The notes beneath the pieces are model-generated. The model searched no databases, was not told the origin of the DNA, and was given only the letters and a program-made list of their open reading frames with translations. Position numbers and translations under genes: made by a program. A stretch of 49,735 bases of DNA from a virus, in IMG/VR virus record IMGVR_UViG_3300042897_001741, positions 1 to 49,735 of that record; one strand, written 5' to 3'. Below are positions 20,045 through 49,506 of this stretch, piece after piece. Numbering within the stretch: the stretch's first letter is position 1; the number at the start of each line of letters is the position of its first letter.

Positions 20045-20280
20045 AGTGGAAACGCCCATCATCGAAGAAGCTGTGGCCTGTGCCGCCAGAGTTTGCCGAA
20101 GCCTTCCGCGAAGGCGGCCACCGCAAGGTTGAGCGATGCTACAACATGCGGAACGACCTCAAGCGCAAATGGCAGGAGATGGCCGGCGGAGATGAAAACC
20201 TGAAGCTGGAGCGCAAGCAGTTCATGACTGTGGCGCGCAAGGCTCGGCAGGGTGATACGGCTGGGAGGCGGAAGGGATGA
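20041..20280 (+). CDS. Small basic protein before the terminase
   Basis: A 79-residue strongly basic protein (WKRPSSKKLWPVPPEFAEAF, later RNDLKRKWQEMAGGDENLKL). It overlaps both neighbours by ATGA and directly precedes the terminase small subunit. DNA binding is plausible from its charge only. Confidence 0.65.
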   Translation: MKWKRPSSKKLWPVPPEFAEAFREGGHRKVERCYNMRNDLKRKWQEMAGGDENLKLERKQFMTVARKARQGDTAGRRKG

Positions 20281-20714
20281 CTCCGAAGCAGGAGAAATTC
20301 TGCCAGTTATATGTCGAGCTGGGCAACGCGTCCGAGGCGTATCGGCAGGCATATGACGCGGCGCGGATGAAGCCCGAGAGCGTAGCGGTGCAGGCCGCGA
20401 AGATGCTCATCAGCCCTAAGATTGCCCTAAGGGTCGATGAATTGAAGGCTGCGGCCGCCGAGCGGCATGGCGTTACGGTGGATGACATCGCCGCGATGCT
20501 GCGTGAGGATCGCGATTTCGCCCGGCAGTGCGAAACGCCCGCCGCTGCCGTCAGTGCTACCATGGGGCTGGCCAAGCTATACGGACACCTGCGTGATAAG
20601 GTCGAGCATACCGGCAAGGACGGCAAGCCGATCCAGACCGAAGATGTGACCGAAGCCAACCTGATCGAGAAGGCGCGCCGCCTTGGTATTGACCCTACCA
20701 CAATCGGCCTCTGA
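20277..20714 (+). CDS. terS: Terminase small subunit
   Basis: A 145-residue small terminase of the Terminase_2 type: TPKQEKFCQLYVELGNASEA with YRQAYDAARMKPESV forms the HTH for pac/cos recognition, followed by KIALRVDELKAAAAERHGVT and a C-terminal helical part. It recognises the packaging site and regulates the large subunit. It overlaps the large-subunit frame by 32 bases. Confidence 0.9.
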   Translation: MTPKQEKFCQLYVELGNASEAYRQAYDAARMKPESVAVQAAKMLISPKIALRVDELKAAAAERHGVTVDDIAAMLREDRDFARQCETPAAAVSATMGLAKLYGHLRDKVEHTGKDGKPIQTEDVTEANLIEKARRLGIDPTTIGL

Positions 20715-22188
20715 TGACCGCGCCGCTCGGCTCGCTCTGCTGGCTGGGCTGGTGGCGAAGCGGAAGAAGGAGGCCCTCGCCCCAGAAGGCAAACTACTCG
20801 ACTTCGCGCGCTGGTATTTCCCCGAGCGCGAGGGGATGGAGTTCATCGAAGGACCGCACCATCGGGTGATCGGTGAAACGCTCGATCGTGTCCTGCGCGG
20901 CGAAATCACCCGCCTCATCATCAATGTGCCGCCCGGATACACGAAGACCGAAGCGGCGGTGGTCAACTTCATCGCCAAGGGCTTCCATGTGAACCCCAAG
21001 GCGCGCTTCATCCACTCCACCTTCTCCGACGACCTGGCGCGTGAGAACAGCGACAAGGTGCTGCAGCTCATCGCCTTGGATGGATATCAGTCGATCAAGC
21101 CTGTCACCATCCGCGTCGATAGCAAGGCGAAGGACCGGTGGAAGACGGCTCAAGGCGGCGGGATGCTGGCCAAGGCTGCAGGTGGGCCTATCACCGGGTT
21201 CCGCGCCGGATACATGGACCGGACTATGTTCACGGGCGCGCTCGTCATCGATGATCCGCTCAAGCCGGATGACGCGTTCTCGGTCGCCAAGCGGAAGACG
21301 GTCAACCAGCGCGCCACCAACACCTTCCGCTCCCGCCTAGCGCATGACGACGTGCCGATCATTGTCATCATGCAGCGCCTGCATTCCGACGACTTCGTTG
21401 GGCACCTCCTCACCGGGGGCACAGGCGAAAAGTGGCATCACCTCAACCTGCCGGTGCTGATCAACAGCGCAGACGCTTATCCGCCTGAATGGACCCATGG
21501 TATCCCGATCATGCATGGCCTGCCTGACGGGCCGCTATGGGACGAGAAGCATGACGCCGCCGAAATCGAGGTGCTGAAGGCTGACGCCTACACCTTCGCC
21601 AGCCAATACATGCAGCGGCCGGTGTCGATCGAGGGCGCGTTGTTCGACATGGCGGGCTTCAAATGGTGGACCGACCTGCCGCCCATGGAATATTACTCCA
21701 TCTTCGCCGATACCGCGCAGAAGACTGGCGAACGCAATGACTATTCGGTCATCCAGCTTTGGGGCAAGGCACAGGGCGCCAAGGCAATTTATCTGGTCGA
21801 TCAGGTGCGCGGAAAATGGGAGGCGCCCCAACTGGAAACGACGGCGCGCGCATTCTGGGACAAGCATGTCGGCAAGGTAGTTCGGGGCTTCAATGTCGAG
21901 GATAAGGCATCAGGGACCGGCCTGATCCAATCGCTCAAAACCAAAGGCGTCCCGATCATTGGCATTCCGCGCGACCGCGACAAATACACCCGAGGCCTTG
22001 ACGCCGCGCCGTGGATATCGACCGGCATGGTCCACCTGCCCGCCAATGAGGAGTGGACGCCGGCGCTGCGGTCTGAGTTGCAGATGTTTGATGGCCTCGG
22101 CACCGGATGGGACGATCAGGTGGATCCGCTGATGGATGCGGTGGCTTCGATGCTGAGCGGCGGCGCTTCGTGGGGCGCGTCTCTCTAG
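20683..22188 (+). CDS. terL: Terminase large subunit
   Basis: A 501-residue packaging motor. The ATPase domain has a P-loop variant NVPPGYTKT at 81-89 and a Walker B ALVIDDP at about 186-192. The RNase H-like nuclease domain starts near 340 with FADTAQKTGERNDYSVI (Asp343 and Asp353) and includes VEDKASGTG and a closing DDQVDPLMDAV. No internal ATG gives a better N-terminus; the TTG at 20683, nine bases after AGAAGG, keeps the family-like SASDDRAARLALLAGL. The 32-base overlap with terS is typical. Confidence 0.92.
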   Translation: MVLTLPQSASDDRAARLALLAGLVAKRKKEALAPEGKLLDFARWYFPEREGMEFIEGPHHRVIGETLDRVLRGEITRLIINVPPGYTKTEAAVVNFIAKGFHVNPKARFIHSTFSDDLARENSDKVLQLIALDGYQSIKPVTIRVDSKAKDRWKTAQGGGMLAKAAGGPITGFRAGYMDRTMFTGALVIDDPLKPDDAFSVAKRKTVNQRATNTFRSRLAHDDVPIIVIMQRLHSDDFVGHLLTGGTGEKWHHLNLPVLINSADAYPPEWTHGIPIMHGLPDGPLWDEKHDAAEIEVLKADAYTFASQYMQRPVSIEGALFDMAGFKWWTDLPPMEYYSIFADTAQKTGERNDYSVIQLWGKAQGAKAIYLVDQVRGKWEAPQLETTARAFWDKHVGKVVRGFNVEDKASGTGLIQSLKTKGVPIIGIPRDRDKYTRGLDAAPWISTGMVHLPANEEWTPALRSELQMFDGLGTGWDDQVDPLMDAVASMLSGGASWGASL

Positions 22189-22234: not shown

Positions 22235-24184
22235 ATGGCCCAACTGCTCGACCATCGCGGCAATCCGATCCAATCTGCCGCGCGCAGCAATGTCGTGCCG
22301 ATGGTGCGGGATGGCCTTGGCGGGCTGGTCAATGGCGCGACCGGCGCAGGCACGGGGATTGACCGCAGCGTCTGGGATTCCTGGCATTTCGTGCCGATGA
22401 CGCCGCATGAAATCGTCTCCGGCTATCGGTCCAACTGGCTGCTCGGCAAGATCGTGGACATTCCCGCCGAGGACATGGTGCGGGAATGGCGCGACTGGCA
22501 GGCCGATGAGGCCCAGATCGAGACACTGGAAGAGGCAGAGCGCAATTTCGATATCGTCGGCAAGGTGCAGCAGGCCATTGCCTACGGGCGTTTGGGCGGC
22601 GGCGCGATGCTTCTCGGATATGGTGACGCCAACCCCGAAGCCCCCGCCCCGCAGCCAGGTAAGGACAGCCTGAAATATGTCCACGTCTTCAACCGCTGGG
22701 AGCTGACGATCGGCGAGGAACAGCGCGACATCACGTCGCCATGGTTCGGCCAGCCCCAATATTTCCAGATCAACGGCAAGCTCGACAATCCGAAGATCCA
22801 CCCGTCCCGCGTGATAGTGTTCAAGGGTTCGCCTGTGCCCCGCTTCCCCGGCGTGACATGGGAAGATCATTTCTGGGGCGATAGCATCGTCTTCCGCATC
22901 GACCGGGCCGTGAAGAACGCAATCAAGGCCAACGACGGCTTCGCGCGCATGATCGATGAAGCGAAGATCGACATCTACCGCCTGTCTGGCTTCATGCAGA
23001 ACCTCATCAGCAACGAGGATGAGGTGCGCAAGCGGGTGCAATATACTGATGCGGGCAAATCGTCGCTGCGAGGCGTCTATCTCGACAAGGACGACGAGTT
23101 CACCCAGCGCCAGCTCACGCTGACCGGGATGCCGGAAATGATCGAGGCGCTGCTTTCGGTTGTTGCTGGCGCTGCCGATATCCCCGCCACTCGGCTGCTC
23201 GGCCGCGCGCCGCAGGGCATGAACAGCACCGGCGATCACGACGAGCAGAACTACCACACGATGATCCGCAGCAAGCAGCGGCTCTATTTGTCCCCCTCGG
23301 TCGATCGCCTCGATGCCACGCTCATCCCGTCCGCGCTCGGCAACCGGCCGAAGGAAATCGGCTATAAGTGGTCGCCTCTCTCTCTGCCCAGCGAGAAGGA
23401 GCAGGCTGAAACGAACAAGCTCAAGGCTGAGACGATCAAGATCTACGTCGATGCGGCGCTGCTGCCGTCGAGTGCGATCGAGAAGGCCACGCAGTCCATG
23501 CTTTCCGATGACCAGTGGTTGCCGGGCCTGGACAAGGCGCTGGCCGAAGCTGAGGCCGCCGGTGAAGAGCCAGGCGGCGACGAATCCGAACTGGGGATCG
23601 TGCCCCTCGGAGAGAAAGGAGGTGGTCAGGGATCTGCCGGTAGCGGCGGGAATGCTGACCCCAATCCCGCCCGCCGTGCTGTGAATGATGCCGCGACCTG
23701 GCTATCCGACGCCACGCCGCGACCGCTCTATGTCCAGCGCAAGCTTCTGAACGCCGCCGATCTGATCGCATGGGCCAAGGACAACGGCTTTGCGACCACC
23801 CTGCCCGCCAGCGACATGCACGTCACGGTCCTCTATTCCCGCAGCCCGGTCGATCCGATGAAAATGGGCCGCGACTGGCGCGAGGATGAGAAGGGCCAGA
23901 TCATCGTTCGGCCCGGCGGCCCGCGCGTTATCGAGAAGCTGGGCGAGAACGCCGTTGTGCTGCGGTTCGCCTGCCCCGATCTGGACTGGCGCCACAAGGA
24001 CATGATCGAAGCCGGCGGTTCGCATGATTGGCCGGAATATGCGCCGCACGTCACGATCAGTTACACCGCGCCCGATGGTGTCGACCTTGACGAGCTCAAG
24101 GCTTTCAACGGCGTGCTGCGGTTCGGGCCTGAGGAGTTCTCGGCGCTCGATCTGGATTGGAAGTCCAAGATCGCGGAGGCCTGA
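22235..24184 (+). CDS. Portal protein fused to an Acb1-type 2H phosphoesterase
   Basis: A 649-residue two-domain protein. Residues about 30-430 are the DUF1073 portal (SWHFVPMTPHEIVSGYRSNW, GRLGGGAMLLGYG, ATRLLGRAPQGMNSTGDHDE). A Gly/Ser/Glu-rich linker (about 430-475) leads to a domain with two H-x-T motifs, His529-Val-Thr531 and His605-Val-Thr607, plus PLYVQRKLLNAADLIAWAKD, RHKDMIEAGGSHDWPEYAPH. These match Acb1, the 2H phosphodiesterase of T4 that degrades cyclic nucleotides of CBASS defence. Both catalytic pairs are intact. The portal would form the DNA-translocating dodecamer at a head vertex; the second domain may be active while attached or after cleavage. Confidence 0.88.
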   Translation: MAQLLDHRGNPIQSAARSNVVPMVRDGLGGLVNGATGAGTGIDRSVWDSWHFVPMTPHEIVSGYRSNWLLGKIVDIPAEDMVREWRDWQADEAQIETLEEAERNFDIVGKVQQAIAYGRLGGGAMLLGYGDANPEAPAPQPGKDSLKYVHVFNRWELTIGEEQRDITSPWFGQPQYFQINGKLDNPKIHPSRVIVFKGSPVPRFPGVTWEDHFWGDSIVFRIDRAVKNAIKANDGFARMIDEAKIDIYRLSGFMQNLISNEDEVRKRVQYTDAGKSSLRGVYLDKDDEFTQRQLTLTGMPEMIEALLSVVAGAADIPATRLLGRAPQGMNSTGDHDEQNYHTMIRSKQRLYLSPSVDRLDATLIPSALGNRPKEIGYKWSPLSLPSEKEQAETNKLKAETIKIYVDAALLPSSAIEKATQSMLSDDQWLPGLDKALAEAEAAGEEPGGDESELGIVPLGEKGGGQGSAGSGGNADPNPARRAVNDAATWLSDATPRPLYVQRKLLNAADLIAWAKDNGFATTLPASDMHVTVLYSRSPVDPMKMGRDWREDEKGQIIVRPGGPRVIEKLGENAVVLRFACPDLDWRHKDMIEAGGSHDWPEYAPHVTISYTAPDGVDLDELKAFNGVLRFGPEEFSALDLDWKSKIAEA

Positions 24185-24186
24185 CG

Positions 24187-25035
24187 GTGGCCTATTCCCT
24201 CTCCCGCATGGCCCGCCAAGCAGGCAAGCGCCGCGACATCACCCTTCGCCCCATTATCCCCACCCAAGCCGCCGCAACCGACCTCGCTGCGATCTACGCG
24301 CCCGCCTGGCAGATATGGTCCGACAACATCGACCGCATTCTTGCCGGCTATGACCCGCAACCGCTGCCCACCGCCGACACGCTGACGATCGACACCGTAG
24401 ATCAGGTGCAGGCCGCCATCAGCAGCGTGGCGCAGGAGTTCCTGACGGTACTCACCGCACGGATCGCGCCGGGGCTGCGGCAATGGGCTGTTCGTGCTGA
24501 GCGAATCCACCGCTCGAAATGGTCGGCCGCGATCAAGGCGGGCGTGGGCGTGGACCTTGATCTGATCCTGTCAGCGCAGCCGGTGGAGGAGACGCTTGCG
24601 ACGTGGTTGGCGCGTAATGTTGCGCTGGTGCAGAACGTGTCGGATCAGGCGCAGGGCCGTATCGCTGACGCCGTGTTCCGGGGCTATGAGCAGCGGACGC
24701 CGGTGCGGGATGTGGCCAAGGAAATCCGCGAGGCGACTGGCATGGGGCGCGACCGGGCTTTGCGTGTGGCGGCTGATCAGTCGAGCAAGATATCAGCCCA
24801 GCTCGACCGCGAACGGCAGGCAGAGGCCGGGCTGACGCAGTTCAAATGGCGCCATTCCGGGAAGCTGCATCCGCGATCCTGGCACAAGGCGCGCGATGGC
24901 AAGATCTATTTCAGCCGCAGCGGAAAGCCAGTGGACGGCGGCGAGGCCATCCCCGCCGACGATCGCGCAGGGATGGCGCCTTGGTGCGGCTGCCGTGAGC
25001 AGGCCTATATCGCGCTGCTGGATGAGGTGGATTAA
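24187..25035 (+). CDS. Phage head morphogenesis protein (Mu gpF/SPP1 gp7-like)
   Basis: A 282-residue protein from a GTG start seven bases after GGAGG. The long helical N-terminus is followed by a typical gp7-like C-terminal domain: FRGYEQRTPVRDVAKEIREA, RALRVAADQSSKISAQLDRE, then HPRSWHKARDGKIYF and a cysteine-containing APWCGCREQ. Such proteins bind the portal and help early head assembly and DNA ejection. The order portal then gp7-like supports the call. Confidence 0.85.
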   Translation: MAYSLSRMARQAGKRRDITLRPIIPTQAAATDLAAIYAPAWQIWSDNIDRILAGYDPQPLPTADTLTIDTVDQVQAAISSVAQEFLTVLTARIAPGLRQWAVRAERIHRSKWSAAIKAGVGVDLDLILSAQPVEETLATWLARNVALVQNVSDQAQGRIADAVFRGYEQRTPVRDVAKEIREATGMGRDRALRVAADQSSKISAQLDRERQAEAGLTQFKWRHSGKLHPRSWHKARDGKIYFSRSGKPVDGGEAIPADDRAGMAPWCGCREQAYIALLDEVD

Positions 25036-26180: not shown

Positions 26181-27560
26181 ATGCGGCAGACAAGCCCCAT
26201 GGTGCTATTCTCCGACGCCCTGACCCTTGACGCGCCCCGCCGGACTTCTGACGGCTACATGGCCGTGCGGGCAAAGGCGGCTCGGACTGGAACATACGCA
26301 TACCTGGGCAGCGAAATCGATCCCGACAACAAGCATGGCCTGCGCGATGCGGGAATGGTGAACGTCCTGCGCGATGCCGAAGCGGTTTTTGACCCGCTGT
26401 CCGCGCATAGCTTCATCGGCAAGCCGATCACCGACAATCACCCTACCGTAGCGGTCAACGCCAAGAACTGGCGCGATCACGCGCGCGGGACGGTGATGGG
26501 CGCGAAGTGGGAGGAAGGCGGCTATCTCGCCTTCGACCTGATGCTGACGGATGCCGACACCATCGATGCGGTCAACGCCGGCAAGCGCGAACTGTCGAAC
26601 GGCTACGCGGCGGAACTGCAATTCGGCGATTTCGATGGCCCCGGCGGCGTCAAATGCGTGGCCAAGCAGATCGCCATCAAGGGCAATCACGTAGCGATAG
26701 TGGACCGGGGCCGCGCTGGCCCGTCCTGCGCCATCACCGATGCCGCTCGCTGCGACAGCGCCCCTCGTTCCATCTTCGACAGCCTTACCACCGACGGAGC
26801 CGCAGAGGCCATTGCGTGGCTGAAGAAGGCCATCGCTCTGCATAAAAAGCATATGGACGGCACCGCTCCCACGACAGGTAGCGATGGCGAAAAAAGCCAA
26901 ATGCTCATGATGACGCAAATGAAAAACGCGTTGTCCGAGCTTGAGTCCGGATCGTCCGGCAAATCCATGAAGATGGACCAGTCCACTTACGGAGCCCCTG
27001 CCATGAAGACCATGTTGATCGACGGGCTGACCGTCGACGTGTCCAACGCCGATACGGCCGAGGCCACGATCAAGACCCTGATCGCCGCGCGTGATGCGGC
27101 CACTGCGCAGGTCACCGACCTGACCAGTAAGGTGTCAACCCTCACTGCCGAGAGCCAGACCAAGGACGCGCAGATCACCACGCTCGAACAGCAGGTGAAG
27201 GACGCCAAGCCGACGCCCGCGCAGCTTCGTGAAGCCGGCAAGTCGCTGATGCAGACCGCCGACAAGGCCAAGACCCTCGGCATCGCCGTCACCGACGCGA
27301 TGGACGAAGCGCAGATCATGCGCGCCACCGTCGACAAGCACATGGGCGAGAAGGCCAAGGACTGGTCGGATGAATCGATCGCCGCCTCGTTCGCCGTGCT
27401 GACCAAGGACGCCAAGCCGGCGGACCCGCTGCGGCAGGTGATTTCGGATGGCGTGCAGACCTTCGGTGATGCCGAAGCCGCGTTCGCCGATGCTCAGCGC
27501 AAGGCCAGCGAAGAGCGCCGCAACGCCTGGAAGACCCCCGCCACCTCGGCCGCAGCGTAA
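26181..27560 (+). CDS. DUF2213 prohead protease with C-terminal scaffold
   Basis: A 459-residue fusion. The N-terminal DUF2213 domain (about 1-200) has TGTYAYLGSEI, KPITDNHPTVAVN with the candidate His, RELSNGYAAELQFGDFDGPG with the candidate Ser, and AIKGNHVAIVDRGRAGPSC. These fit the family called prohead protease. The C-terminal half (about 275-459) is coiled-coil and acidic (ARDAATAQVTDLTSKVSTLT), as expected for an internal scaffold. An in-frame ATG at 27003 with its own GGAG would make the scaffold alone. Confidence 0.82.
   Translation: MRQTSPMVLFSDALTLDAPRRTSDGYMAVRAKAARTGTYAYLGSEIDPDNKHGLRDAGMVNVLRDAEAVFDPLSAHSFIGKPITDNHPTVAVNAKNWRDHARGTVMGAKWEEGGYLAFDLMLTDADTIDAVNAGKRELSNGYAAELQFGDFDGPGGVKCVAKQIAIKGNHVAIVDRGRAGPSCAITDAARCDSAPRSIFDSLTTDGAAEAIAWLKKAIALHKKHMDGTAPTTGSDGEKSQMLMMTQMKNALSELESGSSGKSMKMDQSTYGAPAMKTMLIDGLTVDVSNADTAEATIKTLIAARDAATAQVTDLTSKVSTLTAESQTKDAQITTLEQQVKDAKPTPAQLREAGKSLMQTADKAKTLGIAVTDAMDEAQIMRATVDKHMGEKAKDWSDESIAASFAVLTKDAKPADPLRQVISDGVQTFGDAEAAFADAQRKASEERRNAWKTPATSAAA
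27003..27560 (+). CDS. Nested in-frame scaffold protein (internal start)
   Basis: The same reading frame as the DUF2213 protein, from Met275. It is eight bases after GGAG (26991-26994) and begins MKTMLIDGLTVDVSNADTAE, exactly where the coiled-coil scaffold begins. The product would be 185 residues. This copies the lambda C/Nu3 arrangement, in which an internal start produces excess scaffold. The evidence is the placement and the binding site; expression is not shown. Confidence 0.55.
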   Translation: MKTMLIDGLTVDVSNADTAEATIKTLIAARDAATAQVTDLTSKVSTLTAESQTKDAQITTLEQQVKDAKPTPAQLREAGKSLMQTADKAKTLGIAVTDAMDEAQIMRATVDKHMGEKAKDWSDESIAASFAVLTKDAKPADPLRQVISDGVQTFGDAEAAFADAQRKASEERRNAWKTPATSAAA

Positions 27561-41359: not shown

Positions 41360-43558
41360 ATGGCCCTGTCCGATGTGAAAGTTATTAAGGTCACGACTGC
41401 TTTGGCGGACCCGCTTGCGGCCAAGGCAGATTCTGCGGCGGTCAACGCCAGCCTCACTGCACTTCAGGGCAATCTCAACGAGATTGAGGCAGAGTCGGTG
41501 TCGCGCGACGATGCTCTCGGCACTCGCATCGATGGCGTCGAAGATGAACTGGCGAACAAGGCGGAGGCCGGCGCCGTAAATGCTAGCCTGCTCGCGCTTC
41601 AGGGGAACCTCAACGAAGTCGAAAGCGAATCCGTCGCCCGCGATGATGTGTTGACCGCCGCTGTGGCTACAAAAGCCAGCGCGGCAGATTTGACAGCTCT
41701 GGAAACCGAAGTCGCCACCAAGGCCAATGCGGGCGACGTAAACACCGGCCTCAACACCCTGCAGACCGAAATCAATGCGATTGAGGGGGAGTCCATTGCG
41801 CGGGATAACGATCTGGGCGCCCGCGTCGATGCCGCCGAAACCGAGATCGCGACGAAGGCGAATGCTGGGGATGTCAACACCGGACTGAACACGCTCCAGA
41901 CCAACCTGAACGGCGAAACCAACGCCAGGGCGGCAGCCGATGCGGCGGAAAGCGCAACCCGACTGGGTGCCGATAATCGCGGGTTCGATTATGTCGGCGC
42001 TATCATCGCCTCGGTGCGGGCATTCGTTATCCGCATGGTTGGCAATGCCGAGAGTCGCCTTGAGGGCCGCGCGGACCTGCGTGCCATCGCGGCAAGGGAT
42101 CTCATGCGAAAGCGCACGGGCGCGGTGCAGAGCCTGTCCATCGACATGACTCGCTCCATGCGTTCGGTGCGCCGTGAGGGCATGCCGGCGGCCGCGCTGG
42201 AGATCGAAGACGTAATCTGGTCGGTCGCCGGCAACGTCGTATCGGTGCAGGCCGGGCGCACCGCTTTACGTTCCGCCGGCCGGGCAATCTATCCGATCGG
42301 CAGTGTCTCCATTGATCCGATCGCTTCTGCTTCGATCGTCGGCGAGGAAGCGAGCATTGTCTATGTGGCCAACACCGCGGCGGCCAGCTTCGCACTTGCG
42401 GGTGCCGGGGGACGCCTAGATCACGCCCGGCTCTCCAACGTCGTGGTGCGCGACGCGGCGACTGATGATGTTCTGGCATTGGGCACCGATTATCTGCTCA
42501 ACGCCGAACAGGGTGCGATCCAGAGGGCTGCGGCAGGATCCGCGCTGGCCGTCGAAGTCGATTACGATTATTCGGACGTGCGCTATGACCTGATCGAGAC
42601 GGACCTAACCGGCGCGCTGAGCGTCAAGAAAGGGACGGTGCGCAACCGCGACGTTGCCGAATATCTGCCGGCGCGATCGGCCGGAAAATATCCGCTGCTG
42701 ATTGTGCGCGTCACCGCCGCCGGCATGACAATCTGGCGCTGGCAGGATCAGGAACGGTCGCAGGTTCAGGCGCCGGCGATCATCCAGCGGGGTCGCGCGA
42801 AGGCGCTCGGCAATTTCCATCGCGCATTGCGGGAAGGCGGGACGGTTCGGATTGCCGGCTACGGGACGAGCCGGACCAACCTGGGCGGCGTGGCGGCATC
42901 GCTCTATGCAGCGAACGGGCAGCAGCGCGACCGCATGGCCGACAGCGGCTTCATGGCGGCGCAGGATGCCGCGTTCATCGCTACCCTGCCGCTGTTCGAT
43001 CATGGTGACGGCGCGGGGCAGGTCCATACCCACATAGGCTGGAACTGGACGCTGAAGGCGGCGATCGAGCAGCGCTATCCCAATATCGTCGAATATCTCA
43101 ATTTCGGGATCGGCGGGACCACCAGCGGCAACACCGACAATGGCGGGACGGTTCCGGCGCGCCTGGCCGGGTTGACCGGCAGCGGTGCGCATCTGGCCGT
43201 GATCGAATTCGGAATGAATGAATTGGGGTCGGCTGGGGCCGACACCATCACCAACCTGATTGCGATCGGGGAAGCTTGCCGGGCGGCAAATATCGACCCG
43301 GTGTTTATCGCGCCCGCTCGGCCCAATGCGACCTATTCAGCGGACATTCTGGATCGATGGGTCGTTGAAAATCGACAAATCGCCGCCGCTGCGGATTATC
43401 TCGCGGCCCCCTTCATCGATACAGCTTCGGTGTTCGGCGTCGATCGCCTGGGGCCACTCGACCCTCGCGACATGTGCGGCTCCAACCTCTTCAATCATGA
43501 CAGCGTATTTGAGCTTGGCCTGATCGGCCGGGCGCTAACCTCCATCGTTCTCGGCTGA
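41360..43558 (+). CDS. Tail fibre with coiled-coil repeats and SGNH-like esterase domain
   Basis: A 732-residue protein. Residues about 25-200 form a coiled coil with repeats: VNASL-x-ALQGNLNE twice and TKANAGDVNTGLNTLQT twice. A beta-rich middle follows (about 230-430). The C-terminal region (about 490-732) fits an SGNH/GDSL fold: block I is GYGTS with Ser504, block II is NFGIGGTTS (about 581-589), block III GMNE (Asn620), and a late His713 in FNHD. Deviations are GTS in place of GDS and no Asp three residues before the His. It may de-acetylate surface polysaccharide, with sphingans as obvious targets, but activity is uncertain. Confidence 0.82.
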   Translation: MALSDVKVIKVTTALADPLAAKADSAAVNASLTALQGNLNEIEAESVSRDDALGTRIDGVEDELANKAEAGAVNASLLALQGNLNEVESESVARDDVLTAAVATKASAADLTALETEVATKANAGDVNTGLNTLQTEINAIEGESIARDNDLGARVDAAETEIATKANAGDVNTGLNTLQTNLNGETNARAAADAAESATRLGADNRGFDYVGAIIASVRAFVIRMVGNAESRLEGRADLRAIAARDLMRKRTGAVQSLSIDMTRSMRSVRREGMPAAALEIEDVIWSVAGNVVSVQAGRTALRSAGRAIYPIGSVSIDPIASASIVGEEASIVYVANTAAASFALAGAGGRLDHARLSNVVVRDAATDDVLALGTDYLLNAEQGAIQRAAAGSALAVEVDYDYSDVRYDLIETDLTGALSVKKGTVRNRDVAEYLPARSAGKYPLLIVRVTAAGMTIWRWQDQERSQVQAPAIIQRGRAKALGNFHRALREGGTVRIAGYGTSRTNLGGVAASLYAANGQQRDRMADSGFMAAQDAAFIATLPLFDHGDGAGQVHTHIGWNWTLKAAIEQRYPNIVEYLNFGIGGTTSGNTDNGGTVPARLAGLTGSGAHLAVIEFGMNELGSAGADTITNLIAIGEACRAANIDPVFIAPARPNATYSADILDRWVVENRQIAAAADYLAAPFIDTASVFGVDRLGPLDPRDMCGSNLFNHDSVFELGLIGRALTSIVLG

Positions 43559-47693: not shown

Positions 47694-48397
47694 CACCCTT
47701 CCTCCCCGCGCTTGGCGCTGGAGAGGGCGGCGAGCCACAACGCAATTCTAGTCCAAGGAACGGAATAATCCCCACTCTCGTCAGCATCTCGCCACTGAAA
47801 TTTCACATATCCGTCGCCAGCCAATCGCGCAGAGACGAACTTGCTTTCCCTCATGTTCTCTTCCCACCAACGCTTTGCGTCTCGCGGATCGAACTTTAGT
47901 GGGAGTTCGCCGTCGAACGCCTGCCCGCGAGATTGGGGCGGAAAGCGCTTGTGTAGCAATTCAAGTCCGCGCTTGGCTAATTGACGCCACTCGTCCTTGA
48001 CCAGCATTTCAGCACGTGGATCATGCCAAGTCATGTCGCCCACGCTTTCGAAAAGCATAGCGGCCAACGTCTCGGCTTCCTCCCCCGCGTCGAACTCTTG
48101 GCCGAGACGCTTCCCGCACACTGCGCATGGATTGTTTTCAGCTGATGGCGTGTCGTCGCATGCAACGCAGGCAACCGGCTCCCCGGCCTGCTCAAGGGCG
48201 GCGAGGATGTTGAGCATATCGGCGGCGCGCGAATAGGCCGATGCCATTGCTGTCCCGTATGCCGACATGATTTCAGAAACGGCAGCCATCGGGTCAATGC
48301 CCTCATCGCAACCGGTCGCGCATTCGATCGACGTGCGGATATCCGTCAGCGCCTCAATCGCCACCTTCACAGCATCAGTGGTATCTGCTCCGTTCAT
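47693..48397 (-). CDS. Ead/Ea22-like protein with zinc ribbon
   Basis: A 234-residue protein. An N-terminal helical part (DAVKVAIEALTDIRTSIECA, YSRAADMLNILAALEQAG) is followed by a C-x2-C...C-x2-C ribbon (ACVACDDTPSAENNPCAVCG). The C-terminal half has WWEENMRESKFVSARLAG. The type is common in accessory regions of temperate phages. Start at the ATG at 48397, seven bases after AAGGAG and overlapping the TnpB-like stop by ATGA. Confidence 0.7.
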   Translation of the reverse strand: MNGADTTDAVKVAIEALTDIRTSIECATGCDEGIDPMAAVSEIMSAYGTAMASAYSRAADMLNILAALEQAGEPVACVACDDTPSAENNPCAVCGKRLGQEFDAGEEAETLAAMLFESVGDMTWHDPRAEMLVKDEWRQLAKRGLELLHKRFPPQSRGQAFDGELPLKFDPRDAKRWWEENMRESKFVSARLAGDGYVKFQWRDADESGDYSVPWTRIALWLAALSSAKRGEEG

Positions 48398-49506
48398 ATG
48401 ACGGCTCCTTCTGCAAGCGTATCCAGCCCGATACGGAGAATGTTCTTGGCGGCGTTCACGTCACGGTCATGAACCGCACCGCAATCGCCACAGCCCCATT
48501 CTCTTATTCCAAGACCTGCGATACCTCTCGGCCTCGAAGCGGGAAGTGATCCACACTCCGAACAGGTCTGGGTAGTTAGGCGCTCGTTGACCTCAACCAT
48601 CTTCCCGCCATGCATAACTGCCTTGTACGAGATCATGCATTTGAGGCCCGACCATCCAGCATCGAGCACGCTCTTTGCCATTTTGGTCTGAGCCAACTTC
48701 GATGGACTGACATCGCCAACTGCGATGAACCCATATTGCTTCGCCAAGGCGATCGAGGCCTTGTGAAGAAAATCTTTGCGCCGGTTAGCGATCTTTCGGT
48801 GGATAGATCTGGCGCGCTTCGTCTTTCGCGCTCGCTGCAACGTCGCCAACGCCGCTTCGCTCTTGCGGTAGAACGCGGGCATCTCGATCTTTTTGCCGTC
48901 GCTGAGTGTGGCGAGTTCTTTCAATCCGAGGTCTATGCCGACAGCGCAGTCAGGGCGCGCGTCAGAACATTCAACCTCAATCGGGAGATTGATGTACCAG
49001 TGGCCTCGGTTGTCCTGATTGAAACTACCAGCGCCGATCTTACCGCCAGGGGCGAGGCGAGGATTTAGGTGCATAGCCTGATAGATGGCACCCCGAAATT
49101 TCAGCGTTTCGCCGTTGAATGTGACGTGCCCGGTATTGAACGGCACCCACCCAAGAGCCTTCTTCCCTCGCCAGCGAAGACCAGCACGACGAGCCTTGTC
49201 GCGGGATATGGAGAATTGCTGACAAACCTTCTGGATAGTGTGAGCATGAATATCGAGATACTTTGAAGCGCCAGATGTGAGCTTCTGCAGGTCGTATTTG
49301 GACAACCATTTGTGATCACGCTGCCATGCCGTGCGCGACACTTCATTGAGATAGTTCCAGACATAATTCACCGCCCGAGCTTGTCGATTAAGCTCGGCGG
49401 CGTGCTTGTCGCGAAGGCGGATTTTAATTGTGAGCGTCTGCATAATAGACTCGCTGCCCATGCCCTGAACAACGGCAGCGCTCGCGCCAGATTTAATCAA
49501 GCTCAT
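48394..49506 (-). CDS. TnpB-like (IS200/IS605 OrfB) protein in a phage operon
   Basis: A 370-residue TnpB. The N-terminal part (TLTIKIRLRDKHAAELNRQA, AVNYVWNYLNEVSRTAW) and the RuvC-like nuclease are typical. RuvC-I Asp192 (GIDLGLKELATLSDG) and RuvC-III Asp349 (HDRDVNAAKNIL) are present, as is the zinc ribbon CSEC...CGDC (315, 318, 339, 342). At the usual RuvC-II position the sequence is VGDVSPSK: the expected Glu is replaced by Gly264. Glutamates 305 and 308 (VEVNE) just before the ribbon could take its place. There is no TnpA, and both ends overlap phage genes, so it appears domesticated or cargo. The start at 49506 has AAGGAA; 49443 is the family-typical alternative. Confidence 0.88.
   Translation of the reverse strand: MSLIKSGASAAVVQGMGSESIMQTLTIKIRLRDKHAAELNRQARAVNYVWNYLNEVSRTAWQRDHKWLSKYDLQKLTSGASKYLDIHAHTIQKVCQQFSISRDKARRAGLRWRGKKALGWVPFNTGHVTFNGETLKFRGAIYQAMHLNPRLAPGGKIGAGSFNQDNRGHWYINLPIEVECSDARPDCAVGIDLGLKELATLSDGKKIEMPAFYRKSEAALATLQRARKTKRARSIHRKIANRRKDFLHKASIALAKQYGFIAVGDVSPSKLAQTKMAKSVLDAGWSGLKCMISYKAVMHGGKMVEVNERLTTQTCSECGSLPASRPRGIAGLGIREWGCGDCGAVHDRDVNAAKNILRIGLDTLAEGAVI

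Follow-up and report, generated by a model that had tools for sequence, protein, structure and literature searches.

A phage portal protein carrying an Acb1-type phosphoesterase domain as an exchangeable C-terminal cassette

Acb1, the phage enzyme of T4 (57B) and FBB1, is a 2H phosphodiesterase that breaks down bacterial alarm molecules; its catalytic tetrad consists of H44, T46, H113 and T115, with Y12, W74, F107 and W147 as stacking residues, E141 as the adenine contact and a lid at the C-terminus (residues 145-152; PMC9117128). The portal is the ring by which DNA passes into and out of the phage head. Fusions of 2H domains to portal and MuF domains, comparable to those of the PBECR effectors, were described by Iyer et al. 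in 2017 (PMC5512222), who in the passages on these fusions propose either RNase action or degradation of the nucleotides of nucleotide-activated defence systems; the proposal for 2H-portal proteins was restated in 2022 together with injection (PMC9503650). The relevant sections of both papers treat such fusions as probable packaged and injected counter-immunity enzymes, so the architecture reported below, and its proposed role, are not new; those same sections contain neither Acb1-type naming of the domain nor cassette exchange at the portal tail, and in the literature we searched we likewise found no description of such exchange. Portal-Acb1 architectures are present in at least 32 phage records, and Pfam now names the domain Acb1. 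Our literature search returned no report of activity for any portal-fused member.

Two described proteins are of particular relevance. The portal of Pseudanabaena phage Pam3 (8hds, UQS95074), a solved member of this group, matches DUF1073 and Acb1 across its full length and is 34% identical to the portal studied here, but differs from it in that its second motif is H-x-S, its annotation reads ‘portal’ only, and the domain is absent from the structure model. CBB_118 of Pectobacterium phage CBB (L195:2414-2860) is likewise an Acb1-family 2H protein (PF23474, 1e-15), but is free-standing, 148 aa in length and encoded by a jumbo phage. To this background we add the exchange behaviour of the domain, the alternative occupants found in near-identical portals, the links to Pam3 and CBB_118, and a survey of residue conservation.

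The sequence analysed here (the window) is the whole of IMGVR_UViG_3300042897_001741, a 49,735-base IMG/VR virus contig with a phage head operon in the order terminases, portal, MuF-like protein, three small ORFs, DUF2213 protease, cement protein and major capsid protein. Its features of interest are as follows.

20277-20714: small terminase, head operon
20683-22188: large terminase, head operon
22235..24184, + strand: portal with C-terminal Acb1-type 2H phosphoesterase domain, 649 aa (open reading frame and profile matches)
22409..23440, + strand: DUF1073 portal body (Phage_portal_3), residues 59-402 (E 6.2e-92; Pam3 portal 8hds_A, Z 27.4)
23561..23695, + strand: disordered Gly/Ser/Glu linker, approximately residues 443-487 (pLDDT <50)
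23667..24192, + strand: exchanged cassette (93% DNA similarity to L010; absent from the similarity to L006)
23672..23690, + strand: left cassette junction CGCCGTGCTGTGAATGATG (RRAVND; conserved at the DNA level, with otherwise rare codons, in diverged portals)
23723..24166, + strand: Acb1 domain (PF23474), residues 497-644 (profile; model pLDDT 87.5; FBB1 Acb1, Z 15.8)
23819..23827, + strand: first H-x-T motif, H529/T531 (H44/T46 of T4 Acb1)
24047..24055, + strand: second H-x-T motif, H605/T607 (H113/T115 of T4 Acb1)
24187..25035, + strand: MuF-like minor head protein (PF04233, phrog_324; start site inferred)
26181..27560, + strand: DUF2213 head maturation protease candidate (PF09979, 1.2e-50; phrog_530)

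A preliminary description of this locus, made from the sequence alone, had read the 649-residue portal frame as a complete DUF1073 portal joined by a flexible Gly/Ser/Glu linker to an Acb1-type domain next to a DUF2213 protease. The coordinates, frame and length of the gene proved exact, and a predicted enzymatic effector domain is fused to a virion protein encoded within the late head operon, as in the effector-fused (polyvalent-type) virion proteins of Iyer et al. The protease does belong to the same operon, but it is not adjacent to the portal, as the MuF-like protein and three small ORFs intervene. The MuF gene would probably begin at a GTG 3 bp past the portal stop, and a GGAGG within the last portal (cassette) codons is its likely ribosome-binding site. 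No model of PADLOC, which covers defence rather than counter-defence, matched the portal, the MuF-like protein or the three adjoining small ORFs. Elsewhere in the window, a 732-aa protein of the tail region (41360-43558, + strand) ends in a GDSL lipase/acylhydrolase domain and is possibly a surface-sugar deacetylase of the receptor-binding apparatus, and a TnpB-like gene with OrfB_IS605 and Cas12f1-like TNB domains lies near the right end (48394-49506, - strand).

Profile searches and structure prediction agree with the preliminary description on both halves of the protein. Phage_portal_3 (DUF1073, PF06381) is matched at positions 2-356 of 357, which amounts to a full-length portal core, while PF23474 (Acb1) scores 131.8 bits (E 2e-38; curated cut-off 27) over positions 2-143 of its 144. 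Residues 481-649, modelled with 31 relatives (mean pLDDT 87.5), are predicted to adopt a compact 2H fold, and the best solved match of this model is FBB1 Acb1 in the apo and product-bound forms (7t26, Z 15.8, and 7t27, Z 15.3, with 131-132 residues aligned at an rmsd of 2.1-2.2), followed by the BCSR5 phosphodiesterase, deposited as an anti-CBASS Acb1 (Z 14.8), LigT (10.4) and Usb1 (~9). For the BCSR5 entries (9q2y/9q2g) a literature search found nothing. In a full-length model the portal of Pam3 is the top match, over 391 residues, and the tail matches Acb1; the region joining the two is of low complexity, rich in Gly, Ser, Glu and Asp, as expected of the proposed flexible linker.

The two H-x-T motifs lie at the residues originally assigned to them, and the prediction that they would persist among homologues was borne out. 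We surveyed 103 distinct domains, taken from viral contigs and from genomes; none has lost either histidine, a signal far beyond chance, and Y499 (Y12 of Acb1), H529 (H44), T531 (T46) and H605 (H113) are invariant. Position 607 (T115) is Thr in 91 and Ser in 10 of the 103; position 599 (F107, W599 here) is aromatic (W/F/Y) in 101, and W642 (W147) is kept as Trp in 85. The domain shares with the T4 and FBB1 enzymes the predicted 2H fold, the HxT/HxT tetrad, the whole-domain profile and, as aligned, most of the stacking positions. It differs from T4 Acb1, a free-standing protein of 150 aa, in being fused to a portal, in its separate position in the family tree and, by alignment, at two ligand-contact positions: E141 aligns with S636, although 77 of the 103 relatives have Glu there, and W74 aligns to I566 or E567, depending on the sequence alignment used, with no aromatic in either case. 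Substrate choice and base recognition may therefore depart from those of Acb1, while the catalytic chemistry would be kept. Purifying selection acts on the cassettes, with dN/dS of approximately 0.04-0.16 between related cassettes, including the L010 copy. Three domains (L069, L076 and L077) have H-V-I or H-V-A in place of H-V-T as their second motif, a rare state that possibly marks weakened alleles.

Comparison with related viral loci shows that the Acb1 domain is an accessory cassette, swapped into and out of the portal gene and moving independently of the portal. Relative to L006 the contig portal is 98% identical in the body and 43% in the domain, whereas relative to L010 the body is only 33% identical and the domain 96%. 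The same mosaic is seen in the DNA: similarity to L006 is 95.8% up to position 23692 and 88.7% from 24187, with nothing detectable in between, while similarity to L010 extends over 23667-24192 at 93% and elsewhere in the portal/MuF region comprises a single 48-bp stretch. The breakpoints at 23692 and 24187 coincide with the borders of the domain. Over 595 pairs, the correlation of identities is 0.95 between one half of the portal body and the other (our control) and 0.63 between body and MuF, against 0.12 between body and domain.

The domain is present in 44 and absent from 18 of the 62 viral loci that are related to the whole portal (L062, which the table of body clusters lists as ‘none’ because its body fell under the length filter, does carry it). 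Presence and absence alternate between close relatives: the bodies of L058 (without) and L042 (with) are 97% alike, and the switch recurs between L061 and L024 (93%) and between L059 and L010 (91%). Loss through sequencing artefact was considered and rejected, since the state is found in many independent contigs, with an in-frame end at the junction and an intact MuF gene after it.

The left border of the cassette is an RRA(A/V)ND motif that is kept in portals carrying either Acb1 subtype, PBECR3 or no domain at all. Conservation extends to the DNA, CGCCGTGC-G-GAATGATG, in which codons otherwise rare in these portals are used: CGT makes up 9% of CGN arginine codons in the bodies versus 33 of 43 at the junction, and AAT 22% versus 34 of 43, counts that are not independent, as the portals are related, although the pattern recurs across several body clusters of less than 60% identity. 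An exact-match scan of viral contigs located 34 such sites, 28 of them in recognisable portals; one further site, at a contig edge, continues into an Acb1 domain. On the right the cassette is bordered by the portal stop, three bases ahead of the probable MuF start. On the simplest reading the junction would be a patch of shared homology at which recombination joins cassettes; a site-specific recombination signal is unnecessary, given that shared homology accounts for the pattern equally well. We also considered an internal start (GTG in GCTGTGAATGAT) that would yield the domain alone, and rejected it as a general device, as most relatives have GCG or GCC at this position.

The same position is open to other occupants. 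A PBECR3 nuclease replaces Acb1 in L047 (5980-7776; 1e-13) and L050 (5956-7947; 5e-15), and in L121 (2576-5053) the portal tail bears Acb1 and then PBECR3, an order repeated in L127, where the PBECR3 match is weak. Across 78 loci with the domain a DUF1073 body is present in 74, and the other four are three cut contigs and L116 (2420-4714), in which a portal of the Portal_Mu family (PF06074) holds the Acb1 domain before its last helical segment. The portal-borne domains, those of Pam3 and L116 included, form one group in our tree (support 95/94) that excludes the free-standing enzymes, although long branches make its deep placement uncertain.

Two further observations concern the surroundings of this slot. 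In L029 (3712-6414, on a contig shared with L118) approximately 240 residues follow the Acb1 domain, and Pfam matches in the protein are limited to portal and Acb1/2H. At the start of these extra residues stands a motif of the type NPNHDPHNGQFTSG, similar to the (D/N)P-x-QPR-x(3)-G-(K/R/E)-W found ahead of PBECR3 in L047 and L050; tail effectors may use it generally as a linker or a processing signal. The gap between portal and MuF forms a second accessory slot, with variable small ORFs of ~90-250 aa in L002, L012, L030, L051, L059 and L061 that also follow portals without the Acb1 domain.

Judging from these comparisons and the predicted structure, we think it likely that the contig encodes an active, portal-fused Acb1-type phosphodiesterase that serves in counter-defence against CBASS-type signalling. 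We infer that the enzyme would sit on the flexible C-terminal tail of the portal, on the side of the capsid interior, and that its H529/T531/H605/T607 tetrad would perform an Acb1-like, metal-free acid-base cutting of cyclic di- or trinucleotide signals, the destruction of which would blunt the defence. The cassette is exchanged, lost or replaced (by a PBECR3 nuclease or by nothing) while the portal body stays in place, through recombination that would occur at the conserved linker junction and at the portal stop/MuF start. Action could occur from the new portal in the late-infected cell, from a portal-tethered or cleaved enzyme in the virion, or from both.

An RNA enzyme, cutting RNA or opening 2',3'-cyclic phosphates in the style of Usb1 or LigT (e.g. 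on host or phage tRNA) instead of breaking CBASS signals, would share its fold with both of those proteins; it would also agree with the RNase role that Iyer et al. (PMC5512222), drawing on the analogy of PBECR-portal fusions, give as one possibility in their treatment of the 2H fusions, and with the occupation of the same slot by the predicted RNase PBECR3. We nevertheless regard it as unlikely, in that Acb1 is clearly the nearest solved fold and family, the 2'-5' RNA ligase model PF13563 scores 14.0 bits on the portal frame, below its cut-off of 27, and the stacking positions equivalent to Y12, F107 and W147 are largely retained. The fusion of the domain to a portal throughout its group could instead speak for a structural or assembly part (a crown extension, for example, or an element that contacts DNA or serves packaging) whose active site is a relict. 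This is highly improbable given that 18 of the 62 close portals dispense with the domain, even where bodies are nearly identical, that its alleles swap independently of the portal, that the catalytic residues are invariant, and that the domain is absent from the resolved Pam3 structure.

Where a counter-defence enzyme of the Acb1 type would act is a separate matter. In solved portals the C-terminal side faces the capsid interior, and portals are normally not ejected. The deposited Pam3 chain has 442 modelled residues out of 621 and its alignment ends at residue 437, before the 2H domain, which implies that the domain is either flexible and mobile or else cleaved and missing in virions. Mass spectrometry identified CBB_118 among the proteins of purified CBB virions, with 7 unique peptides and 60.4% coverage, and its authors gave it only the label ‘structural protein’ (PMC5259590), so an Acb1-family protein can be a particle component, which does not imply injection. 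It is conceivable, though less likely than not, that the portal C-terminus is a dedicated anti-defence slot, with a short conserved DNA junction at which recombination swaps in Acb1 alleles, PBECR nucleases or nothing, and that the portal ring of each particle bears some twelve enzyme copies that infection would release or expose. That the enzyme is not delivered by the particle, and acts only in the infected cell from late-made portal before or beside assembly, is a serious possibility, if one that falls somewhat short of probable. It accords with the place of the gene among the late head genes and the lack of any sign of separate expression, with the usual retention of portals, and with the finding that lysates from phage infection show activity at the time of the late onset of CBASS cell death (PMC9117128). 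Against this reading, two portal families carry the domain as a fusion to a virion protein, which is hard to explain if free protein sufficed; a free Acb1 relative is present in virions; and the pertinent part of PMC5512222 predicts injection for PBECR effectors, which occupy this slot too.

The closest relatives in bacterial genomes are from Sphingobium, Stakelama and other Alphaproteobacteria. Among 398 Sphingomonadales genomes the Acb1 domain is present in 8, in 7 of them within long open frames of 610-711 aa; extending the Acb1 survey to the whole class yielded just two more genomes above cut-off, of which one had been counted before. A SMODS (CBASS-type) synthase scores above cut-off in 3 of the 8 genomes with the domain versus 34 of the 390 without (Fisher p 0.03), an association that is suggestive only, as there are just 8 carriers, the thresholds were set afterwards, and genome size and kinship are uncorrected.

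Portal-2H fusions have been predicted since 2017, while the literature we searched treats Acb1 as a free enzyme. If the tentative reading of some twelve particle-borne copies is true, a cyclic-nucleotide defence would be met before phage gene expression. The unresolved tail of Pam3 and the virion-borne CBB_118 point to samples already in existence that bear on delivery. Nature also provides near-isogenic pairs, in which the same portal bears other Acb1 alleles, PBECR3 or nothing, and which make two questions directly testable: whether a structural protein of the virion doubles as a counter-defence enzyme, and whether the swapping of its alleles tracks the CBASS signals of the host.
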